Below are positions 16,055 through 23,958 of a DNA stretch of 64,000 bases, in pieces. A program made the translations under genes and the position numbers. Numbering within the stretch: the first letter of the stretch is position 1; the number at the start of each line of letters is the position of its first letter. The notes under the pieces are model-generated. The model was given only the letters and a program-made list of their open reading frames with translations, was not told the DNA's origin and searched no databases. Origin of the DNA: Acidobacteriota bacterium (GTDB taxonomy: Bacteria; Acidobacteriota; Terriglobia; Terriglobales; Acidobacteriaceae); the NCBI GenBank assembly GCA_021792135.1, contig JAJYVF010000013.1, positions 62,001-126,000 of the forward strand, written 5' to 3'.

Positions 16055-16197
16055 CCGTCCTCCGACTCTCTGTCTTTCTGGAGATGTAACACAGCCCTGA
16101 ATTCGCTGTATTTGTCCTCTTACAACGACGCGCTGGTTCCCGGAAAGTTCTGCTGACCTCCGCGCCCCCCCCAATCTGTCGGTCAGGATCCGGTGAA

Positions 16198-16218
16198 CGG
16201 CGCGATAAATTCGCGCCG
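16198..16218. promoter_or_regulatory. Perfect inverted repeat upstream of the bufferin-like operon
   Basis: CGGCGCGA and TCGCGCCG are an exact 8-bp inverted repeat around TAAAT, 123 bp upstream of the precursor start and 143 bp upstream of the divergent MFS start. The AT-rich spacer flanked by GC-rich arms looks like a dimeric regulator site shared by both genes. No regulator gene is adjacent, so this is a suggestion only. Confidence 0.4.
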
Positions 16219-16341
16219 TGGAGTAGCGCGGGAGGGGGATTCTTCTGTAGTCTTATCCGCACCGCGAGGTCCCCCGCCCGGCGCTCCCCTGCTGTTTCCG
16301 TGCCCGGTCTGGTTCTCCGGAAATCGATGGAGGAATGACTC

Positions 16342-16638
16342 ATGAAGCATTCAATGAAGACCATGATGGTCGCTGCGGCTGTCTCCGGCCTGCTCAGCGG
16401 CGCAACGGCGATGCACGCCGCCGTCCTCAGCCCGTCCGGTGTGGTGCCCATTCTGAAGGCGGGCAAAGCGTCATTCACCGGCGCCCCGCAGGCCAAACTG
16501 CCCAAGCACTCCTGCAAGGGCAAGAACGACTGCAAAGGCCAGGGTGGCTGCAAGAGCGGCGACAATGGCTGCAAGGGCAAGAACAGCTGCAAAGGCAAGG
16601 GCGGCTGCGCCACCGACGGCTCGAAGATGCCTGGCTAA
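16342..16638 (+). CDS. bufA: Bufferin/BufA2-type RiPP metallophore precursor
   Basis: A 98-residue exported precursor peptide. Residues 1-26 are a signal peptide (MVAAAVSGLLSGATAMHA). The C-terminal core carries six cysteines at 58, 64, 70, 77, 83 and 89, arranged as two copies of a 19-residue unit, each C-x5-C-x5-C with CKGKN and CKGxGGC sequences. BufA2-family precursors have this CKG-rich pattern, and MNIO enzymes convert some of their cysteines to metal-binding heterocycles such as thiooxazoles. GGAGG sits 8 bp before the ATG. The MNIO enzyme, its partner and DoxX lie downstream on the same strand. A strong hairpin follows this gene. Copper sequestration is the likely role by family, not shown here. 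Confidence 0.85.
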   Translation: MKHSMKTMMVAAAVSGLLSGATAMHAAVLSPSGVVPILKAGKASFTGAPQAKLPKHSCKGKNDCKGQGGCKSGDNGCKGKNSCKGKGGCATDGSKMPG

Positions 16639-16663
16639 GTCCTGCCCGGACACAGATAAATCC

Positions 16664-16698
16664 GCTGGAAAGGGCGCTCGGCATGCGCTCTTTCCAGC
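16664..16698 (+). promoter_or_regulatory. Intercistronic hairpin masking the start of the membrane-protein gene
   Basis: GCTGGAAAGGGCGC (16664-16677) pairs with GCGCTCTTTCCAGC (16685-16698) through 14 bp, with one G-U in RNA, and a 7-nt loop. It begins 25 bp after the precursor stop. The putative ribosome-binding site GGAAAGGG is in its left arm, and the ATG at 16683 straddles the loop and right arm. No T-run follows, so it looks more like a translation block, RNA stability element or partial attenuator than a simple terminator. Confidence 0.65.
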
Positions 16699-17546
16699 TT
16701 CACGACATTGGTTCCATGGCTTTTATCCAACCAGCGGTTCATGAACCGGCTGCGGCTGCGGTTACCGCGCAGACCGACTCCCTGGCCACTGTCTGTGCTG
16801 TGGCGATCCTTGCCATGATGATCTCCGATGTGGTGCACGAGGGGATCGGGCATGGGCTCACGGCGCTGCTGACGGTCTCGCCCTCGGGCGTGCTTTCCAC
16901 GGTTGCCTGGAACAGCGCATATAACAGCAAGCTGGTCGATGCCGGGGGCACCATCGCGAACCTCATTGCGGCCGCGATCCTGTGGCTGCTCTTGCGCAGC
17001 GCGCGGCGCGCATCGCCTGCCACGCGACTTTTTCTCCTGCTCACCTGCGCGTTCGATCTCTTCGCCGGGACGGGATACTTCCTGTTTTCCGGTGTCTCGA
17101 ATTTCGGAGACTGGGCAGACGTGATCCAGGGGCTTCGCCCCCATGGGCTCTGGCGTGTCCTGCTGGTCGTCGGCGGCGCGCTCGCCTTCTGGGTCGCGCT
17201 GGTCATCGCCGGGAGCGCCCTGATCCGTTCTGTCGGTATTCCGCGTTCGGAGCGCCGCCGCATCGGCCGGCTCATGCTGGTGGCTTATCTGAGCGCGGTC
17301 GCGATTGCGTGTATCGGCGGCGCGCTCAACCCGGAGGGTATTCAGTACGTGTTCCGCTCCTCGCTGCCCGCTACGGCCGGCGCCGGATCCGGCCTGCTGT
17401 ACATGCAGTATTACGCGCGCAGAAACATCCGGCCGGCCACAAACGTCGAACCCATCAACCGCAGCTATGCCTGGATCGGGGTCACCGCTGCCTGCGTGCT
17501 TCCCTATATTCTTGTTCTTGGCCGCGGAATCACGCTGACCCGCTAG
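16683..17546 (+). CDS. M50-like polytopic membrane protein in the bufferin-like operon
   Basis: A 287-residue membrane protein with about six hydrophobic segments, between the precursor and the MNIO enzyme gene. A first segment contains SDVVHEGIGHGLTALL, with His52, Glu53 and His57 spaced as HExxxH. The next contains VDAGGTIANLIAAAIL (Asp86 to Asn93), like the AGPxxN motif of M50 site-2 proteases. Canonical M50 enzymes have HExxH, so the extra residue makes catalysis uncertain, although TldD-type metalloproteases do use HExxxH. It could process or transport the modified peptide. Start is the ATG at 16683 with GGAAAGGG upstream, or the ATG at 16716. I do not recognise it as a named family member. 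Confidence 0.65.
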   Translation: MRSFQLHDIGSMAFIQPAVHEPAAAAVTAQTDSLATVCAVAILAMMISDVVHEGIGHGLTALLTVSPSGVLSTVAWNSAYNSKLVDAGGTIANLIAAAILWLLLRSARRASPATRLFLLLTCAFDLFAGTGYFLFSGVSNFGDWADVIQGLRPHGLWRVLLVVGGALAFWVALVIAGSALIRSVGIPRSERRRIGRLMLVAYLSAVAIACIGGALNPEGIQYVFRSSLPATAGAGSGLLYMQYYARRNIRPATNVEPINRSYAWIGVTAACVLPYILVLGRGITLTR

Positions 17547-17562
17547 ACCAACAAGGTGCTCG

Positions 17563-18477
17563 ATGCCCGCAAACCGCTTCAACGGATTCACCGAGTACGG
17601 CGTGGGCATCGGTCTGCGCATTCCGCATTACCAGCACATCCTCTCCCGCCGCCCCGTCGTCGGCTGGTTCGAGATCATCTCGGAAAACTACATGATCGAC
17701 GGCGGCCGCCCGCTCGAGATCCTCGACAAGATCCTCGAACAGTACAAGGTCGTCCAGCACGGCGTCTCCATGTACTTCGGCTCCGTCGACCCGCTGAACC
17801 GCGAGCACCTGAAGCGCCTTAAATCCCTGGCGCGCCGCACCCGAACGCCCTGGCTCAGCGACCACCTCTGCTGGGGTTCGGTCGACGGCCGTTACACGCA
17901 CGACCTGCTGCCCATGCCCTATACCTGGGAAGCCGTCGAGGTCACCGCCCGGAAGATCCGCCAGGTGCAGGATTTCGTCGAAGTCCCTGTGGTCGTCGAG
18001 AACGTATCGAGTTACGCCGAGTTTCATGTCTCCGAGATGACCGAGTGGGAATTCCTCACGGAAGTGGTGGAGCGTGCCGACTGCGGCATTCTGCTCGACG
18101 TCAACAACATCTACGTCTCCTCGGAGAACCACAACTTCGACCCCTTCACCTACGTCAACTTCGTACCCGCGCATCGGGTCGCGCAGATTCACATCGCCGG
18201 CCACAGCAAATTCGAGAAGTACATCCTCGATACCCACGACCATCCCGTTCTTCCCGCCGTCTGGCGCCTTTACGCGCGTGCCATCGAACGCTGCGGCCCC
18301 ACCGCCACGCTGCTCGAATGGGATGACAACATCCCCACCTTCGAGGAGGTCCACGGCGAAGCTCTCAAGGCAAACAAGTTCCTGAAAGCCGCCGCCGAAG
18401 CACCGCCGGATGCGGCGATTCCAGCCGTCGAATCCGCCGCCTCCCAGATCCTCGAGCACACCGGAGTGTCCCGATGA
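17563..18477 (+). CDS. bufB: MNIO (DUF692) RiPP-modifying enzyme, BufB/HvfB-like
   Basis: A 304-residue TIM-barrel enzyme of the multinuclear non-haem iron-dependent oxidase family, which includes MbnB, TglH and ChrH. These enzymes use two or three irons and oxygen to rearrange cysteine in a peptide. Ligand motifs are all visible in order: WFEIISENYM, VVENVSSY, LLDVNNIYV, IHIAGH, DTHDHPV and LLEWDDNIP. The substrate is presumably the cysteine-rich peptide encoded upstream, with the membrane-protein gene in between. The stop overlaps the start of the next gene as ATGA, so the enzyme and its partner are translated together. The ATG at 17563 is favoured; it lies 16 bp after the membrane-protein stop. 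Confidence 0.92.
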   Translation: MPANRFNGFTEYGVGIGLRIPHYQHILSRRPVVGWFEIISENYMIDGGRPLEILDKILEQYKVVQHGVSMYFGSVDPLNREHLKRLKSLARRTRTPWLSDHLCWGSVDGRYTHDLLPMPYTWEAVEVTARKIRQVQDFVEVPVVVENVSSYAEFHVSEMTEWEFLTEVVERADCGILLDVNNIYVSSENHNFDPFTYVNFVPAHRVAQIHIAGHSKFEKYILDTHDHPVLPAVWRLYARAIERCGPTATLLEWDDNIPTFEEVHGEALKANKFLKAAAEAPPDAAIPAVESAASQILEHTGVSR

Positions 18478-19391
18478 GCGGATCCGGTCATCTCCTCGAA
18501 ATCCAGCGCCGCATGGCAGCCGCCGTCATGCATCCGCTCACCCGTGCCGAGACCATGCCGCGCCGCCGCCGCGACGGCACCTCGAACCTCACCGAAGCCG
18601 AGGCCATCATCCGCCCCAACGATCGGCTGACTGCGTTCGAGCGCCTCGAAATCTATAACCGCCAGTACTGGTTCCGTCTCTACTCGTCCTTCGAAGAGGA
18701 TTTCCCCGGCCTCGAGTCCATCCTGGGCCGCGAGAAATTCGACGTGCTCATGCGCGCGTACCTCACCGACCGCCCTTCGGAGTCCTTCAGCCTGCGCAAC
18801 CTCGGCTCGCGCCTCCAATCCTGGCTCGGGACGCATCCGCAGTACATCGAGCCGCACGTCACCCTGGCCCTCGATATGGTCAGCCTCGAATGGGCGCACA
18901 TCGAAGCCTTCGATTCCGAGGAGTGTCCCCGCATCGGCCCCGAGGCGCTGGCCGGCATCGGCGAGGACTCCGTACTACACCTGCAGCCGTATATACGTCT
19001 GCTCGCGCTTTCGTATCCCGTCGACGATCTCCTGATCCAGGTGCGCAGCGAAGCGGGGAGCAGCACCTCCGCGGCCAATAACGCCAGCGCCAGCCGCAAA
19101 CGCCGCCACGTCCGCCGCGTAGCTGCCCTCGCGCCCAGGACCATCTGGCTGGCCGTCCACCGTCACGAAAACTCCGTCTGGTACAAGCCGCTGGACGAGG
19201 AGGAATTCCGTCTTCTTTCCGCCCTGCTCGCCGGCAAAACGCTGGGAACGGCTGTGGACGAATGCTTCTCCGCCAGCGCGATTCCGGAGGAACAGCGGCC
19301 CGCCTGGCTCCAGGAAGCCTTCGCCGCCTGGGCCGCGCTCGGCTGGATTACCAGCGAAACCGGCCGCTCCGACCTGAAAGGTACTGCATGA
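18474..19391 (+). CDS. bufC: DUF2063 partner protein of the MNIO enzyme, BufC/HvfC-like
   Basis: A 305-residue soluble protein with the DUF2063 domain in its N-terminal half. The hallmark is RLTAFERLEIYNRQYWFRLY, followed by SSFEEDFPGLESILGREKFD and AYLTDRPSESFSLRNLG. In characterised MNIO systems this type of protein recognises the leader of the precursor peptide and brings it to the MNIO enzyme. The C-terminal half (from about residue 180) is less conserved and carries a basic stretch, SASRKRRHVRR. It overlaps the enzyme gene by 4 bp and the DoxX gene by 4 bp, which supports a single operon and a complex in fixed ratio. Confidence 0.9.
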   Translation: MSGSGHLLEIQRRMAAAVMHPLTRAETMPRRRRDGTSNLTEAEAIIRPNDRLTAFERLEIYNRQYWFRLYSSFEEDFPGLESILGREKFDVLMRAYLTDRPSESFSLRNLGSRLQSWLGTHPQYIEPHVTLALDMVSLEWAHIEAFDSEECPRIGPEALAGIGEDSVLHLQPYIRLLALSYPVDDLLIQVRSEAGSSTSAANNASASRKRRHVRRVAALAPRTIWLAVHRHENSVWYKPLDEEEFRLLSALLAGKTLGTAVDECFSASAIPEEQRPAWLQEAFAAWAALGWITSETGRSDLKGTA

Positions 19392-19885
19392 GCACGCCCG
19401 CCGCCGCAGCCCCCAGAGGTAAAAGCTGCAACCCCATTGCCCTCGCCTACCAGCGCCTTCTCCACACCGTCGATTCCCTGCAGACGCCCTTCCTGCTGCT
19501 CGTCCGCCTCTACTGGGGCTGGCAGTTCGCCCAGACCGGCTGGGGCAAGCTGCAGCATCTCCCCCGTGTCGCCCATTACTTCGGCACTCTGGGCCTCCCT
19601 GCGCCGGGCCCCACAGCGGCCTTCGTCTCCGGCCTCGAATTTGTCGGCGGGATTCTCTTTATCGTCGGCTTCGGCACGCGCGTGACCGCCCTTCTGCTGG
19701 CCGTCGACATGATCGTCGCCTACATCGCCACCGACCTGACCGCGCTCGCCTCCATCCTCAGTGACCCGGACAAGTTTTACGGCGATGCTGCCTACACGTT
19801 TCTCATTGCCTCGCTGATTCTGCTCATCTTCGGCCCGGGGCGGGTCTCGGTGGATTACCGGCTCTTCCGCCGCCGGGAATACTGA
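19388..19885 (+). CDS. DoxX-family membrane protein, HvfD-like
   Basis: A 165-residue inner-membrane protein with four hydrophobic segments typical of DoxX. FLLLVRLYWGWQFAQTGWGKL opens the first helix, GLEFVGGILFIVGFGTRVTA the second, and DKFYGDAAYTFLIASLILLI lies near the C terminus. DoxX proteins occur as the last member of HvfABCD and bufferin-type operons, and their proposed roles include redox or membrane partnering. The start overlaps the DUF2063 gene by ATGA, and the next gene starts 74 bp later with its own upstream space, so this closes the operon. Its exact role in metallophore biosynthesis is not known. Confidence 0.88.
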   Translation: MSTPAAAAPRGKSCNPIALAYQRLLHTVDSLQTPFLLLVRLYWGWQFAQTGWGKLQHLPRVAHYFGTLGLPAPGPTAAFVSGLEFVGGILFIVGFGTRVTALLLAVDMIVAYIATDLTALASILSDPDKFYGDAAYTFLIASLILLIFGPGRVSVDYRLFRRREY

Positions 19886-19959
19886 ACCCGGCCCGCGGCG
19901 AAACCCCGGCCCCCTTCTGCGCGTCTAACCGGTGATTCAGCCATAATCAGGTCAAAGCC

Positions 19960-21141
19960 ATGAAATCCCGTTTCCTGTCCGCTCCTGGTCTTGCCGCGCT
20001 CCTGCTTCTGGTCGGGAATGCGGGGGCCCAGGACAAAGCTCCGGCAGCCCCAGCCAAACCTGCCGCCGCTGCTTCCGCCCCAGCCAAACCTGCCACCGCC
20101 GCGCCCGCCGCAGCCACTACCGTCAAGCTTCCCGTCACGGTGGTCGACCAGCGCGGCGACCCGGTGAAGAATCTCACCCCCGCCGACCTCATCCTGACCG
20201 ACAACGGGCAGACGCAGGCCATTCAGTCCTTCGTTCCCGATCCTTCCAACAACATCGTCTTCGGCCTCATCGGCGAAACCACCTCCGGCCTGCGCTTTGA
20301 ACTGGGCGATCAGCGCCTCGCCACGATCCATTTCGTCGATCACACGCTGCCCGGCACGGACGACAAGGCATTCGTCATTCAGTACTCCAACGAAGTCGAT
20401 CTGCTCGCCGATCCCACCGCCACCACCAACAAGCTGCACGACGCCATCAACCAACTGGGCTCCCCCCAGTTTGGCTCGCAGGGCGGCGGCAACAGTAATC
20501 AGAATTCGGGGCCGCCGCACCTCAGCGCCGGCAGCGCCGGCGGAACGCTCTACGACGCCATCTATCTGGCCTCGTACGAGATCATGAAGAAACAGCCGGG
20601 TCGCCACATCCTCGTCATCGTCACGGACGGCGTCGATCACGACAGCAAGGAAACCGTCAACGGCGCTATCGAAGCCGCGCAGGATGCCCATACCGCGGTC
20701 TTCGCCATCTATTACAGACCTGAGGAGCAGCGTCCGCCGAACCAGAACGAGAGCCGGCATGGGGGCCTCGGCTATCCGGGCGGCCCCGGTGGCCCCGGCT
20801 ATCCGGGCGGCCCCGGCTATCCCGGCGGCCCCGGCGGCTACCCGGGCGGCGGGGGCGGCTATCCCCGCGGGGGCGGTCAGGCGCCGCCTTCCCAGCCCCA
20901 GGTCGACGGCAGGAAGATTCTGGAGCACATCTGCAATGAGACCGGCGGCTACATGGTCGAGGGCCGCCGCGACAAGGCCGATGATGCCTACAACAGGATC
21001 TCCGCTCTGCTGAAGAACCAGTACTCCGTCTCCTTCGTGCTCAACCAGAGTTCCGCGGACTCGCCGTACCACCGCTTCAGCCTTACCGCAAAGAGGAAGA
21101 ACGTGTGGCCGCTGCTGCAGGAGGGCTACACAGCGAAGTGA
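19960..21141 (+). CDS. VWFA-related acidobacterial protein with collagen-like insert
   Basis: An exported protein of 393 residues with signal peptide MKSRFLSAPGLAALLLLVGNAGAQ. A low-complexity Ala/Pro/Lys linker with duplicated APAKPA units follows. Residues around 55-100 match the acidobacterial N-terminal segment (VTVVDQRGDPVKNLTPADL, ILTDNGQTQ). A VWFA-like core follows, with AGGTLYDAIYLASYEIM and HILVIVTDGVDHDSKET in place of a full MIDAS triad. Near residues 268-306 a Gly-Pro-Tyr-rich insert (GYPGGPGGPG units) interrupts the fold. The family is abundant in Acidobacteriota and its function is unknown. Surface adhesion is only a guess. It follows the DoxX gene by 74 bp and may or may not belong to that operon. 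Confidence 0.85.
   Translation: MKSRFLSAPGLAALLLLVGNAGAQDKAPAAPAKPAAAASAPAKPATAAPAAATTVKLPVTVVDQRGDPVKNLTPADLILTDNGQTQAIQSFVPDPSNNIVFGLIGETTSGLRFELGDQRLATIHFVDHTLPGTDDKAFVIQYSNEVDLLADPTATTNKLHDAINQLGSPQFGSQGGGNSNQNSGPPHLSAGSAGGTLYDAIYLASYEIMKKQPGRHILVIVTDGVDHDSKETVNGAIEAAQDAHTAVFAIYYRPEEQRPPNQNESRHGGLGYPGGPGGPGYPGGPGYPGGPGGYPGGGGGYPRGGGQAPPSQPQVDGRKILEHICNETGGYMVEGRRDKADDAYNRISALLKNQYSVSFVLNQSSADSPYHRFSLTAKRKNVWPLLQEGYTAK
20769..20877 (+). repeat. Tandem GGCCCCGGCTATCCGGGC-like repeats encoding a Gly-Pro-Tyr tract
   Basis: Imperfect units of about 18 bp repeat within the VWFA-related gene and encode GYPGGPG and GGYPGGG blocks. They remain in frame, so they are part of the protein rather than a separate element. 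Such tracts can change copy number by slippage. Confidence 0.8.
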
Positions 21142-21211
21142 ATCCCGTGTCGTATGCGGCAGGACGCAGCCGGGCTCGGCGGTGGCCTTCGCGTCCTGCT
21201 ACGATGCATGC

Positions 21212-21586
21212 ATGAGGCGAGCGCTCGCAGCCGTGCTGATGCTGGTCTTCAGCTTTCCGCTGATCGCGCCGCTCTTTACCTCCGGCCCGGATGATGCCGA
21301 TCTCCCCGCCTGCTGCCGCCGCAATGGTAAACACCACTGCGCCATGGCCGGCATGATGGTCCAGGCCGAATCACGTTACGTCACTGTCTCGGAGCGGTGT
21401 CCGTACTCGCCTTTTGCGCATGTCGCGCTGATGCTCCCGCATTACTTCGTTCCCGACACCCGCCCTCCGTCCTCCATCTCCGGATCCGGCCCGTCGACCC
21501 CGGTGCGCGCCGCGGAAGCCGGCTATCGCATCTCCGCCGACCGCTCCCGCCAGAAGCGTGGACCTCCTTTCCTGATGGCGCTGTAG
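21212..21586 (+). CDS. Small exported Cys/His/Met-rich protein
   Basis: A 124-residue protein with a signal-like start (MRRALAAVLMLVFSFPLIAP). A compact potential metal-binding patch follows, with Cys34, Cys35, His41, His42, Cys43, Met45, Met48 and Met49 in PACCRRNGKHHCAMAGMM. Its C-terminal half is basic and has no clear fold. I chose the ATG at 21212 because the signal peptide begins there. The longer frame from 21182 adds ten non-signal residues. It lies 92 bp before a TonB-receptor gene on the same strand. The soft Cys/Met and His ligands suggest copper or a similar metal. This is inference and no named family is recognised. Confidence 0.6.
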   Translation: MRRALAAVLMLVFSFPLIAPLFTSGPDDADLPACCRRNGKHHCAMAGMMVQAESRYVTVSERCPYSPFAHVALMLPHYFVPDTRPPSSISGSGPSTPVRAAEAGYRISADRSRQKRGPPFLMAL

Positions 21587-21678: not shown

Positions 21679-23958
21679 ATGATGCGAACGATCAGGATTC
21701 TGTCGGCCGTCCTGTCTTTGATGGCCGCGCCCTTCCTCTATGCCGCTCTCCTCGGTCAGGTGCGAGGCATCGTGCATGACCCCCAGCATCGCCCGATCGA
21801 CGGCGCCCACATCGCGCTGCGCGCCGCTCATTCCACGCTGGCGTTCTCCTCCGCCAGCAATTCCGACGGTTATTTCTCGATCCCCGCGGTCCCGCCGGGC
21901 GTGTATATCATCGTGGTTTCGGCCACGGGATTCGCCGCCACGCAGCAGACCATCGTCGTCGCCTCCAGCGGTTCGGAGATCCTGCATTTCCCTCTGGAGA
22001 TCGCCGCGGCCCATGAGACCGCCGTCGTCCACGCCGAACAGGACACGGCCAACCCTGACTCCGTCACGCCCACCACTCTGGTCACTCGCGCCCAGATCAT
22101 CAAAACTCCGGGCGCGGACCTGACGAACTCGATGGCGATGATTACGGACTTCACACCCGGCGCCTACATGACCCACGACATGCTGCACATGCGCGGCGGT
22201 CACGAGCTAAACTGGATGATCGACGGCGTTCCCATTCCCAACACCAACATTGCCGCCAATGTCGGCCCGCAGATCGATCCCCGCGACATCGACACCATCG
22301 AGATCGACCGCGGCAGCTACAACGCCGACCTCGGCGACCGCACCTACGGCATGTTCGACGTCATCCCCCGCACCGGTTTCGAAATGAACCGCGAAGGGGA
22401 AATGGTGACCACCTTCGGCAATTTCTACCAGACCGACGACCAGCTCAGCTTCGGCGATCACAGCGAGCGCTTCGCCTGGTTCGCGGCCCTGAACGGCAAC
22501 CGCAGCAACTACGGCCTGATGGCTCCCATCGAGAAGCCCGTCCACGATGCTGAAAACGGCTACGGCGGGTTTGGGTCCCTCATCTTCAATCACGATCCAC
22601 GCGACCAGTTCCGCCTGGTTTCCCAGCTCCGCACCGACTATTACCAGATTCCTTACGATCCCAATCCGAACGACTGGGAGAATCAGCTCTACGATTCCTC
22701 CGGCCTGCGCGACGGCGATCATGAAGACGACGGCTTCTCCACCTTCTCCTGGATTCACACCCTCAGTTCGTCCACGCTCTTTGAGATTTCGCCCTTCTAC
22801 CATTACAACGAAGCCCTGTATCAGCCCTCGCCGAACGACCTTCCCACGGCGACCACGGCCCGCGAGACCGGCCAGTACACCGGCGCCCAGGCCTACTTCT
22901 CCACCAGCATTGCCCGCAATTCCTTCAAAGCCGGCCTGTACGGCTACGCTCAGCACGAGAACGATCTCTTCGGCGTGGTTTTCAACGATGGCAGCTCGAC
23001 AGATTTCTCCGAGAATCCCATCGCGAACGGCGGTGTGGAGGAAGCCTTCATCGAGGACAATTACCGCCCCACTTCCTGGCTGACGCTCATCGGCGGCGAG
23101 CGCCAGTCGCATTTCCAGGGAACCCTTACCGAGAATGCCGTTTATCCGCGCATTGGCATGGCCGTCCAGATTCCGTATCTGCGCTGGGTGCTGCGCGGCT
23201 TTTATGGCCACTTCTATCAGCCGCCGCCACTCACCAGCATCACCGGTCCGGCGCTGGCCTATGCTCATGCCACCGACACCAGTTTTGTACCGCTGAAGGG
23301 TGAGCGCGACGAAGAGCACCAGTTCGGACTGCAGATCCCCTGGCGCGGCTGGCTGCTCGATGCCGACACTTTCGAAACTCTCGCCACCAATTTTCTCGAC
23401 CACAGCAATATCGGCGAGTCGGATGTTTTCATCCCCGTCACCGTCCAGGGAGCGAAGATAAATGGCTGGGAGCTGACCATCCGCTCTCCCCAGCTCTGGC
23501 GCTACGGGCAGGCACATCTCGCTTACTCGAACCAGCTCGCCCAGCAGATCGGCGCCATCACCGGCGGTCTCATCTGCTATCCGGCCAGTTCGCCCGCCTG
23601 TGCACCCCCTCCCGGTTACATTGCTCTCGACCACGATCAGCGCAACACGCTCAACATCGGCTTCGACGGCAATCTTCCCCGCCGCGCCTGGGCTTCCCTT
23701 AACCTCTATTACGGCTCCGGATTCTCCAACGGCTACCCCAACCCTCCGTCGCCGTACACGGGTGCTTATCTGCCGGGCCACGCCAGCCTTGACCTCGCTC
23801 TGGGCAAGTCCATCGCCGAGAACTGGTCGTTCAGCGCGGACGCGACCAATGTCACCAACACCCGCGTCCTGCTCGACAACAGCCTCACCTTCGGCGGCTT
23901 CCATGAAAATGACCCCCGCCAGATCTACGCGCAGCTTCGCTGGCATTTCCACTTTTAG
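21679..23958 (+). CDS. TonB-dependent outer-membrane receptor
   Basis: A 759-residue receptor. It has a signal peptide (TIRILSAVLSLMAAPFLYA), then a carboxypeptidase-regulatory-like beta domain at roughly 25-110 (GQVRGIVHDPQHRPIDGAHI, VPPGVYIIVVSATGF). The plug domain follows (LVTRAQIIKTPGADL, MRGGHELNWMIDGVPIPNTN, DIDTIEIDRGSYNADLGDRT), then a long beta-barrel ending in LRWHFHF with the terminal aromatic needed for outer-membrane assembly. AGGA precedes the ATG at 21679 by 5 bp. The frame upstream of it is not protein-like. The small Cys/His/Met-rich protein sits upstream, so a metal or metallophore is one possible substrate. The barrel sequence alone does not reveal it. Confidence 0.9.
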   Translation: MMRTIRILSAVLSLMAAPFLYAALLGQVRGIVHDPQHRPIDGAHIALRAAHSTLAFSSASNSDGYFSIPAVPPGVYIIVVSATGFAATQQTIVVASSGSEILHFPLEIAAAHETAVVHAEQDTANPDSVTPTTLVTRAQIIKTPGADLTNSMAMITDFTPGAYMTHDMLHMRGGHELNWMIDGVPIPNTNIAANVGPQIDPRDIDTIEIDRGSYNADLGDRTYGMFDVIPRTGFEMNREGEMVTTFGNFYQTDDQLSFGDHSERFAWFAALNGNRSNYGLMAPIEKPVHDAENGYGGFGSLIFNHDPRDQFRLVSQLRTDYYQIPYDPNPNDWENQLYDSSGLRDGDHEDDGFSTFSWIHTLSSSTLFEISPFYHYNEALYQPSPNDLPTATTARETGQYTGAQAYFSTSIARNSFKAGLYGYAQHENDLFGVVFNDGSSTDFSENPIANGGVEEAFIEDNYRPTSWLTLIGGERQSHFQGTLTENAVYPRIGMAVQIPYLRWVLRGFYGHFYQPPPLTSITGPALAYAHATDTSFVPLKGERDEEHQFGLQIPWRGWLLDADTFETLATNFLDHSNIGESDVFIPVTVQGAKINGWELTIRSPQLWRYGQAHLAYSNQLAQQIGAITGGLICYPASSPACAPPPGYIALDHDQRNTLNIGFDGNLPRRAWASLNLYYGSGFSNGYPNPPSPYTGAYLPGHASLDLALGKSIAENWSFSADATNVTNTRVLLDNSLTFGGFHENDPRQIYAQLRWHFHF

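Follow-up and report, generated by a model that had tools for sequence, protein, structure and literature searches.

A bufferin-type operon of an Acidobacteriaceae genome with a site-2-protease-like gene between the precursor and MNIO genes

The 64,000-nucleotide stretch of Acidobacteriota DNA analyzed here (the window) contains five genes on the forward strand, A, M, B, C, and X (Table 1), predicted to encode a peptide precursor (A), a membrane protein (M), an MNIO (DUF692) enzyme (B), a DUF2063 partner protein (C), and a DoxX family membrane protein (X). The initial annotation described this locus as a Bufferin/HvfABCD-like metallophore operon of the ribosomally synthesized and post-translationally modified peptide (RiPP) type, and the question it raises is whether M is a fifth component of a conserved system or an addition to a known one. 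As judged from gene content, A-B-C-X is a well conserved arrangement of a known kind, and M makes it a new but patchy variant. The most probable reading (roughly 75%) is an ordinary bufferin operon of Acidobacteriaceae that captured a gene resembling site-2 protease (S2P), 3′ of the precursor gene and its hairpin. M is better seen as an optional gene gained by capture than as a conserved fifth component, because M and B occur independently across genomes, A and B are mostly adjacent, and the flanking genes are alike in loci that lack M.

A, B, C, and X as a bufferin operon

Family scans agreed with the initial annotation in placing precursor, MNIO, DUF2063, and DoxX genes together, and both ATGA overlaps that it had reported were confirmed, between B and C (at 18474) and between C and X (at 19388). 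B scored 350.8 bits against NCBIfam MNIO_BufB (NF050167), above the cut-off of 310, and 249.6 bits against the HvfB equivalog model, below the cut-off of 360. Likewise, C scored above the Pfam PF09836 gathering score (52.6 versus 27.2 bits) and below the HvfC cut-off (38.6 versus 142 bits), and X scored above the Pfam PF07681 gathering score (67.2 versus 23.6 bits) and below the HvfX cut-off (63 versus 80 bits). With all three Hvf models below their cut-offs and EGKCG repeats absent from the 98-aa precursor, an HvfABCD or Hvf-type assignment was rejected; the initial description thus holds as far as a bufferin-type MNIO metallophore operon is concerned, and its HvfABCD part does not. MNIO was the sole family above cut-off in B, which presented no nitroreductase fusion. 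In an alignment of B to solved relatives (3bww, 8hci, and 7dz9), seven of the eight MbnB iron ligands were identical in B (His91, Glu135, Asp165, Asn168, His194, Asp209, and Glu238), the eighth (His55) lying outside the alignment; the ligand list is that given for VcMbnB in PMC8888699, and the numbering of 7dz9_A was taken as that of this source, all seven residue types being in agreement.

The core of A contains six cysteines in CKGKN/CKGQG/CKGKG repeats, and its N-terminus, with a Lys and a hydrophobic stretch ending in AHA, reads by eye as an apparent Sec signal peptide. An MNIO match at E ≤ 1e-20 was present in 64 of 200 relatives; among the 30 loci with the best MNIO matches (window included), 27, including the window, presented a six-Cys precursor. 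Five of the six Cys were invariant in an alignment of 21 precursors, and 20 of 21 family precursors scanned matched the BufA2 model at E ≤ 0.01 (best E = 2.8e-11).

Previously described bufferin precursors carry Sec signals and are encoded in operons together with an MNIO gene, a gene for a DUF2063/RRE partner, and a DoxX gene (PMC12452194, Antoine et al. 2025). Buf2 bufferins in particular have a Sec-type six-Cys precursor gene followed by MNIO, DUF2063, and DoxX genes (PMC12452194); the window has the same gene layout, with an apparent Sec signal, and differs from them in the extra gene between precursor and MNIO genes. Taken without M, A-B-C-X is by its gene content a Buf2-like bufferin operon, although the score of the window precursor falls under the NCBIfam BufA2 cut-off. 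The MNIO and PME1 (DUF2063/RRE) gene pair is shared with the captophorins, a proposed class that includes bufferins, oxazolin, fontiphorin, bulbicupramide, and gonophorin (PMC13097082), a likeness of gene content. The HvfABC/oxazolin system also has MNIO, DUF2063, and DoxX relatives, and is unlike the window in the EGKCG repeats and model scores described above.

Caulobacter Buf1 contains copper-binding thiooxazoles, and the available text of the same source gives the Buf2 chemistry as not identified, with mass loss and absorbance that look alike to those of Buf1 (PMC12452194). By analogy with these characterized bufferins, B and C would act in the cytosol, converting cysteines of A by oxidation into thiooxazoles that bind copper, and A would be exported by the Sec route with removal of its signal peptide; the exported peptide would then buffer periplasmic copper, with X as a putative membrane accessory. 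The peptide most likely works as in known bufferins.

Structure, distribution, and history of M

M carries the motifs HEGIGH (residues 41–46), AGGTIAN (76–82), and FGDW (with GDW at 131–133), as well as four Cys. In an alignment of 26 M sequences, H41, E42, G45, H46, A76, G78, N82, G131, and D132 were invariant; in a 59-row alignment, the HE and GH of HExxH were present in all rows and Asp132 in 58, the remaining row having a gap. Residue 114 of window M (17055–17057), located in the helix before GDW, is Asp, and Asn is found here in 54 of the 59 rows. The AlphaFold2 model of M (mean predicted local distance difference test score, 91.4) places HExxH on a helix spanning residues 23–53. Among 997 PDB chains aligned with VIA-align, the site-2 protease 3b4r was the best match (131 residues; root-mean-square deviation, 4.8), with a Z of 6.5 that is under the level VIA-align calls safe for helical proteins; the next rows listed had Z ≤ 5.2. 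Foldseek gave no significant match, and 3b4r, at rank 17 (E = 0.58), had the highest probability (0.69) among the best 50 rows.

Sequence searches with window M identified no Pfam or NCBIfam family at E ≤ 0.1 (one chance-level Pfam match had E = 0.15), and neither PF11667 nor PF02163 was matched in the Pfam scans. Pfam Peptidase_M50 was touched by one of the 26 M relatives (E = 0.043), a PDB sequence search with M gave one chance-level match (E = 0.22), and a profile search gave none; the window genome encodes other M50 proteins above cut-off, with M not among these matches. Motifs and modeled fold together suggest that M is S2P-like; its product is probably a folded membrane protein with a zinc site. 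The M50-like motifs that the initial annotation had seen in this extra membrane protein are thus supported by HExxH, the downstream Asp, and a best structural match, albeit a weak one, to site-2 protease. The first in-frame ATG after A is at 16683; the alternative ATG at 16716 is the likelier start, because 16683 falls in the loop of a strong hairpin and the copy of M in a congener, G008, starts near 16716.

G008, which belongs to the same genus as the window and bears out the Acidobacteriota setting initially described, also presents the A-M-B-C-X order (identities: A, 87%; M, 57%; B, 89%; C, 77%; X, 56%). This recurrence, along with a ratio of nonsynonymous to synonymous substitution rates (dN/dS) of approximately 0.24 for M between the two genomes, indicates that the five-gene arrangement is not due to chance. 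As a conserved system, the five-gene order was not upheld: A was directly 5′ of B in 28 of the 30 loci, with 65–177 bases from the A stop through the B start codon, and M lay between A and B only in the window and G008. Bufferin-type operons are frequent in Acidobacteriaceae, and extra genes can enter them; among 398 genomes of the family, taken from a wider group (B counted at E ≤ 1e-60 and M at E ≤ 1e-20), B was found in 139, M in 44, and both in 16. Because 15.4 shared genomes would be expected (Fisher p = 0.87), M and B are independent across the family; they adjoin only in the window genome and G008 and lie on different contigs in the other 14 shared genomes.

The initial annotation named a lack of co-occurrence of M with MNIO genes elsewhere as its refutation, and this lack was observed: besides the independence across the family, none of the M relatives examined, G008 apart, adjoins an MNIO gene. 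A scan of public genomes (84,980 species) with two peptide patterns, which may not cover records of the window's own genome, yielded 49 M relatives, and only L097 (the G008 locus) was near an MNIO gene within flanks of up to 6 kb (shorter at contig ends). When 68 loci, some of which represent the same place twice, were searched with profiles of B, C, and X, L097 was the one locus with B and C; X was found there as well and, at chance level, in L123 (E = 0.37). G001, a congener with a partial B, had no M match at E ≤ 1e-5. Four stand-alone M relatives (L107, L108, L110, and L143) are split over two frames, representing either sequencing errors or decaying genes.

In a nine-gene tree, the window genome (G000) groups with G009, G003, and G006 (95/92), not with G008. 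A single gain of M in a clade of G000 and G008 was rejected, as a constraint holding these two genomes together, chosen because both carry M, gave p = 0.027; the fewest changes for M on this tree is two. This would be compatible with two gains, with transfer into the same site, or with one early gain, which would need further losses. The dN/dS of M between the window and G008 is consistent with purifying selection, although the synonymous divergence (dS) of 1.64 is nearly saturated. This dS is higher than those of the neighboring genes (0.76–1.29), which, so near saturation, would fit either an older split or a transfer.

Capture, passenger, and protease readings of M

Several observations weigh against M being an optional capture in an ordinary bufferin operon. 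A scored only 35 bits against NCBIfam BufA2 (NF050166; cut-off, 60), and the precursors of L054 (five Cys) and of L057 and L059 (four Cys each) precede otherwise normal MNIO genes. In the M tree, the window copy and the G008 copy are sister to each other (99/94; bootstrap not fully settled), and their sisterhood at the same site suggests that the association either lasted or recurred. M is also intact in both species despite 57% identity, with catalytic-type residues kept.

Within the capture reading, what M does is less clear. There is about an even chance that M is a passenger, that is, a scattered Acidobacteriota S2P-like gene that landed in the operon and has a function unrelated to the peptide, and we place this ahead of a role as accessory protease. 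M and B show no genome-level association, and in 20 M loci a crude open-frame call, which lost M itself in four, found no neighbor family in more than two loci; moreover, in another congener, G002, C and X are separated by an ankyrin-repeat gene of 220 aa (L085, 3745–4407; Pfam Ank E = 1.8e-20), a second insertion showing that unrelated genes do enter this operon. A passenger of no use would be expected to decay, however, and M is intact and looks constrained (dN/dS well below 1) at the same site in two species that do not group together in the nine-gene tree, while in one M subclade five stand-alone relatives share neighbors with each other (RbfA-, NrnA-, and ArnT-like genes, recognized by eye), neighbors that offer no functional clue. 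It seems unlikely that M is instead a dedicated S2P-type maturation protease that cuts pre-A or a signal-peptide remnant within the membrane and thereby speeds peptide release: M is missing from 28 of the 30 operons, its relatives apart from G008 are not with MNIO genes, other M50 proteins of the genome could do such work, and the M-less G009 has a precursor core identical to that of the window and G008, so that M is not linked to an altered peptide. Such a protease would nevertheless agree with the retention of the HExxH, AGxxxN, and GD residues in 58–59 of 59 rows (window included), with the resemblance of the M model to site-2 protease, with the same strand and place of M in two species, and with the action of S2P-clan proteases in other RiPP pathways.

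These proteases include TmcP, for which leader removal needs the HExxH histidine and a distal Asp (double mutant; PMC13252029), the M50 proteases TglG and TmoG, which free thia-amino acids, and EpeP, which matures an epipeptide (PMC10885120); daptide clusters encode a fusion of an RRE with a site-2 protease (PMC10036551). TglG acts in the pathway of pearlin, the C-terminal Cys of which is modified by the MNIO TglH (PMC10885120), and an M50 protease beside MNIO chemistry is therefore not itself new. As S2P-clan membrane proteases of RiPP pathways, TmcP, TglG, TmoG, and EpeP (PMC13252029, PMC10885120) are comparable to the S2P-like M, but belong to other RiPP classes, and window M matches neither PF11667 nor PF02163. 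Adjamnio-III, compared by description only, has an HExxH protein of 267–386 aa with 3–4 Cys encoded just 5′ of the MNIO gene (PMC12452194), a size, Cys count, motif, and place that agree with M, which may be homologous to it; in contrast to the unfused MNIO and the precursor of the window, its MNIO is fused to a nitroreductase, and the available text identifies no precursor. The accessible part of a paper on a Microbulbifer copper-RiPP (bulbicupramide) reports no protease near the cluster (PMC12538549), and none of the open-licence literature matches listed deals with a bufferin operon that contains an M50/S2P-like gene.

We regard as doubtful the specific proposal that M was recruited as an intramembrane protease for a Sec-exported bufferin, the modified precursor of which it would cut within the membrane. 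If true, M would be the first dedicated protease in a bufferin operon as far as found, and the system would be patchy, with the same peptide made by related species whether or not they have M; any action of M on the peptide would bear on whether and how the modified precursor of these metallophores is cut. The question lends itself to a direct test, since the same peptide core occurs in the congeners that carry M and in the M-less G009.

The usual third M50 motif is of the NPDG type. Its replacement by GDW, the lack of an M50 Pfam match for window M, and the Asp at residue 114 could point to a non-proteolytic membrane metal-site or sensor protein aiding copper or zinc balance; we consider this quite improbable, since the full HExxH, the conserved Asp, and the S2P-like model favor a catalytic zinc site. 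A misassembly or chimera at the site of M is hardly credible: the assemblies are fragmented (77 contigs for the window genome), but the same order occurs in the separate assembly of G008, within 122 kb of contiguous sequence, and the contig of the window spans 140 kb. The capture of an S2P-like gene into an ordinary bufferin operon remains our preferred explanation.

Transcription signals and flanking genes

Table 1. Coordinates of the operon genes and of the hairpin within the window.
Feature	Position	Strand	Characteristics
A: bufferin precursor (BufA2-like)	16342..16638	+	98 aa; NCBIfam BufA2 NF050166 E 1.2e-8
Hairpin 3′ of A, 5′ of M	16664..16698	+	14-bp stem, 7-nt loop
M: site-2-protease-like membrane protein	16716..17546	+	276 aa; HEGIGH, AGGTIAN, GDW
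B: MNIO (DUF692) enzyme, BufB type	17563..18477	+	Pfam PF05114 E 9.2e-107
C: DUF2063 partner protein (PME type 1)	18474..19391	+	PF09836 E 5.5e-14
X: DoxX family membrane protein	19388..19885	+	Pfam PF07681 E 2e-18

Folding of the gap between A and B in the 30 loci gave z < −2 against dinucleotide shuffles in 22 (window z = −5.06); the other eight, three of them near zero, did not reach this value, so that a hairpin-prone stretch follows A in most of the loci. The window hairpin has no T run behind it and is not listed by a terminator scan; a hairpin at this place may keep the precursor-to-enzyme mRNA ratio high. M probably shares a transcript with B, C, and X. A sigma-70 promoter scan of 16100–20000 found no promoter, with 0.6 expected by chance. 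The GC content at third codon positions was 0.77 for M, 0.80–0.85 for its neighbors, and 0.78 for the upstream MFS gene, a comparison that is not decisive.

The operon is flanked by this MFS gene upstream and, downstream, by genes encoding a VWA protein, a small Cys/His protein, and a TonB receptor. These flanks are common within the genus regardless of the presence of M: among the 10 congener loci besides the window, a set that leaves out G001, the VWA and small Cys/His genes were found in all 10, the TonB receptor gene in nine (the contig of the tenth ends there), and the upstream MFS gene in eight. All seven loci from other genera have A-B-C-X, with none of the flanking genes searched. In the window, the small protein, which contains a CCRRNGKHHC stretch, is encoded at 21182–21586 and the TonB-dependent receptor at 21679–23958; the two are possibly part of a metal locus.

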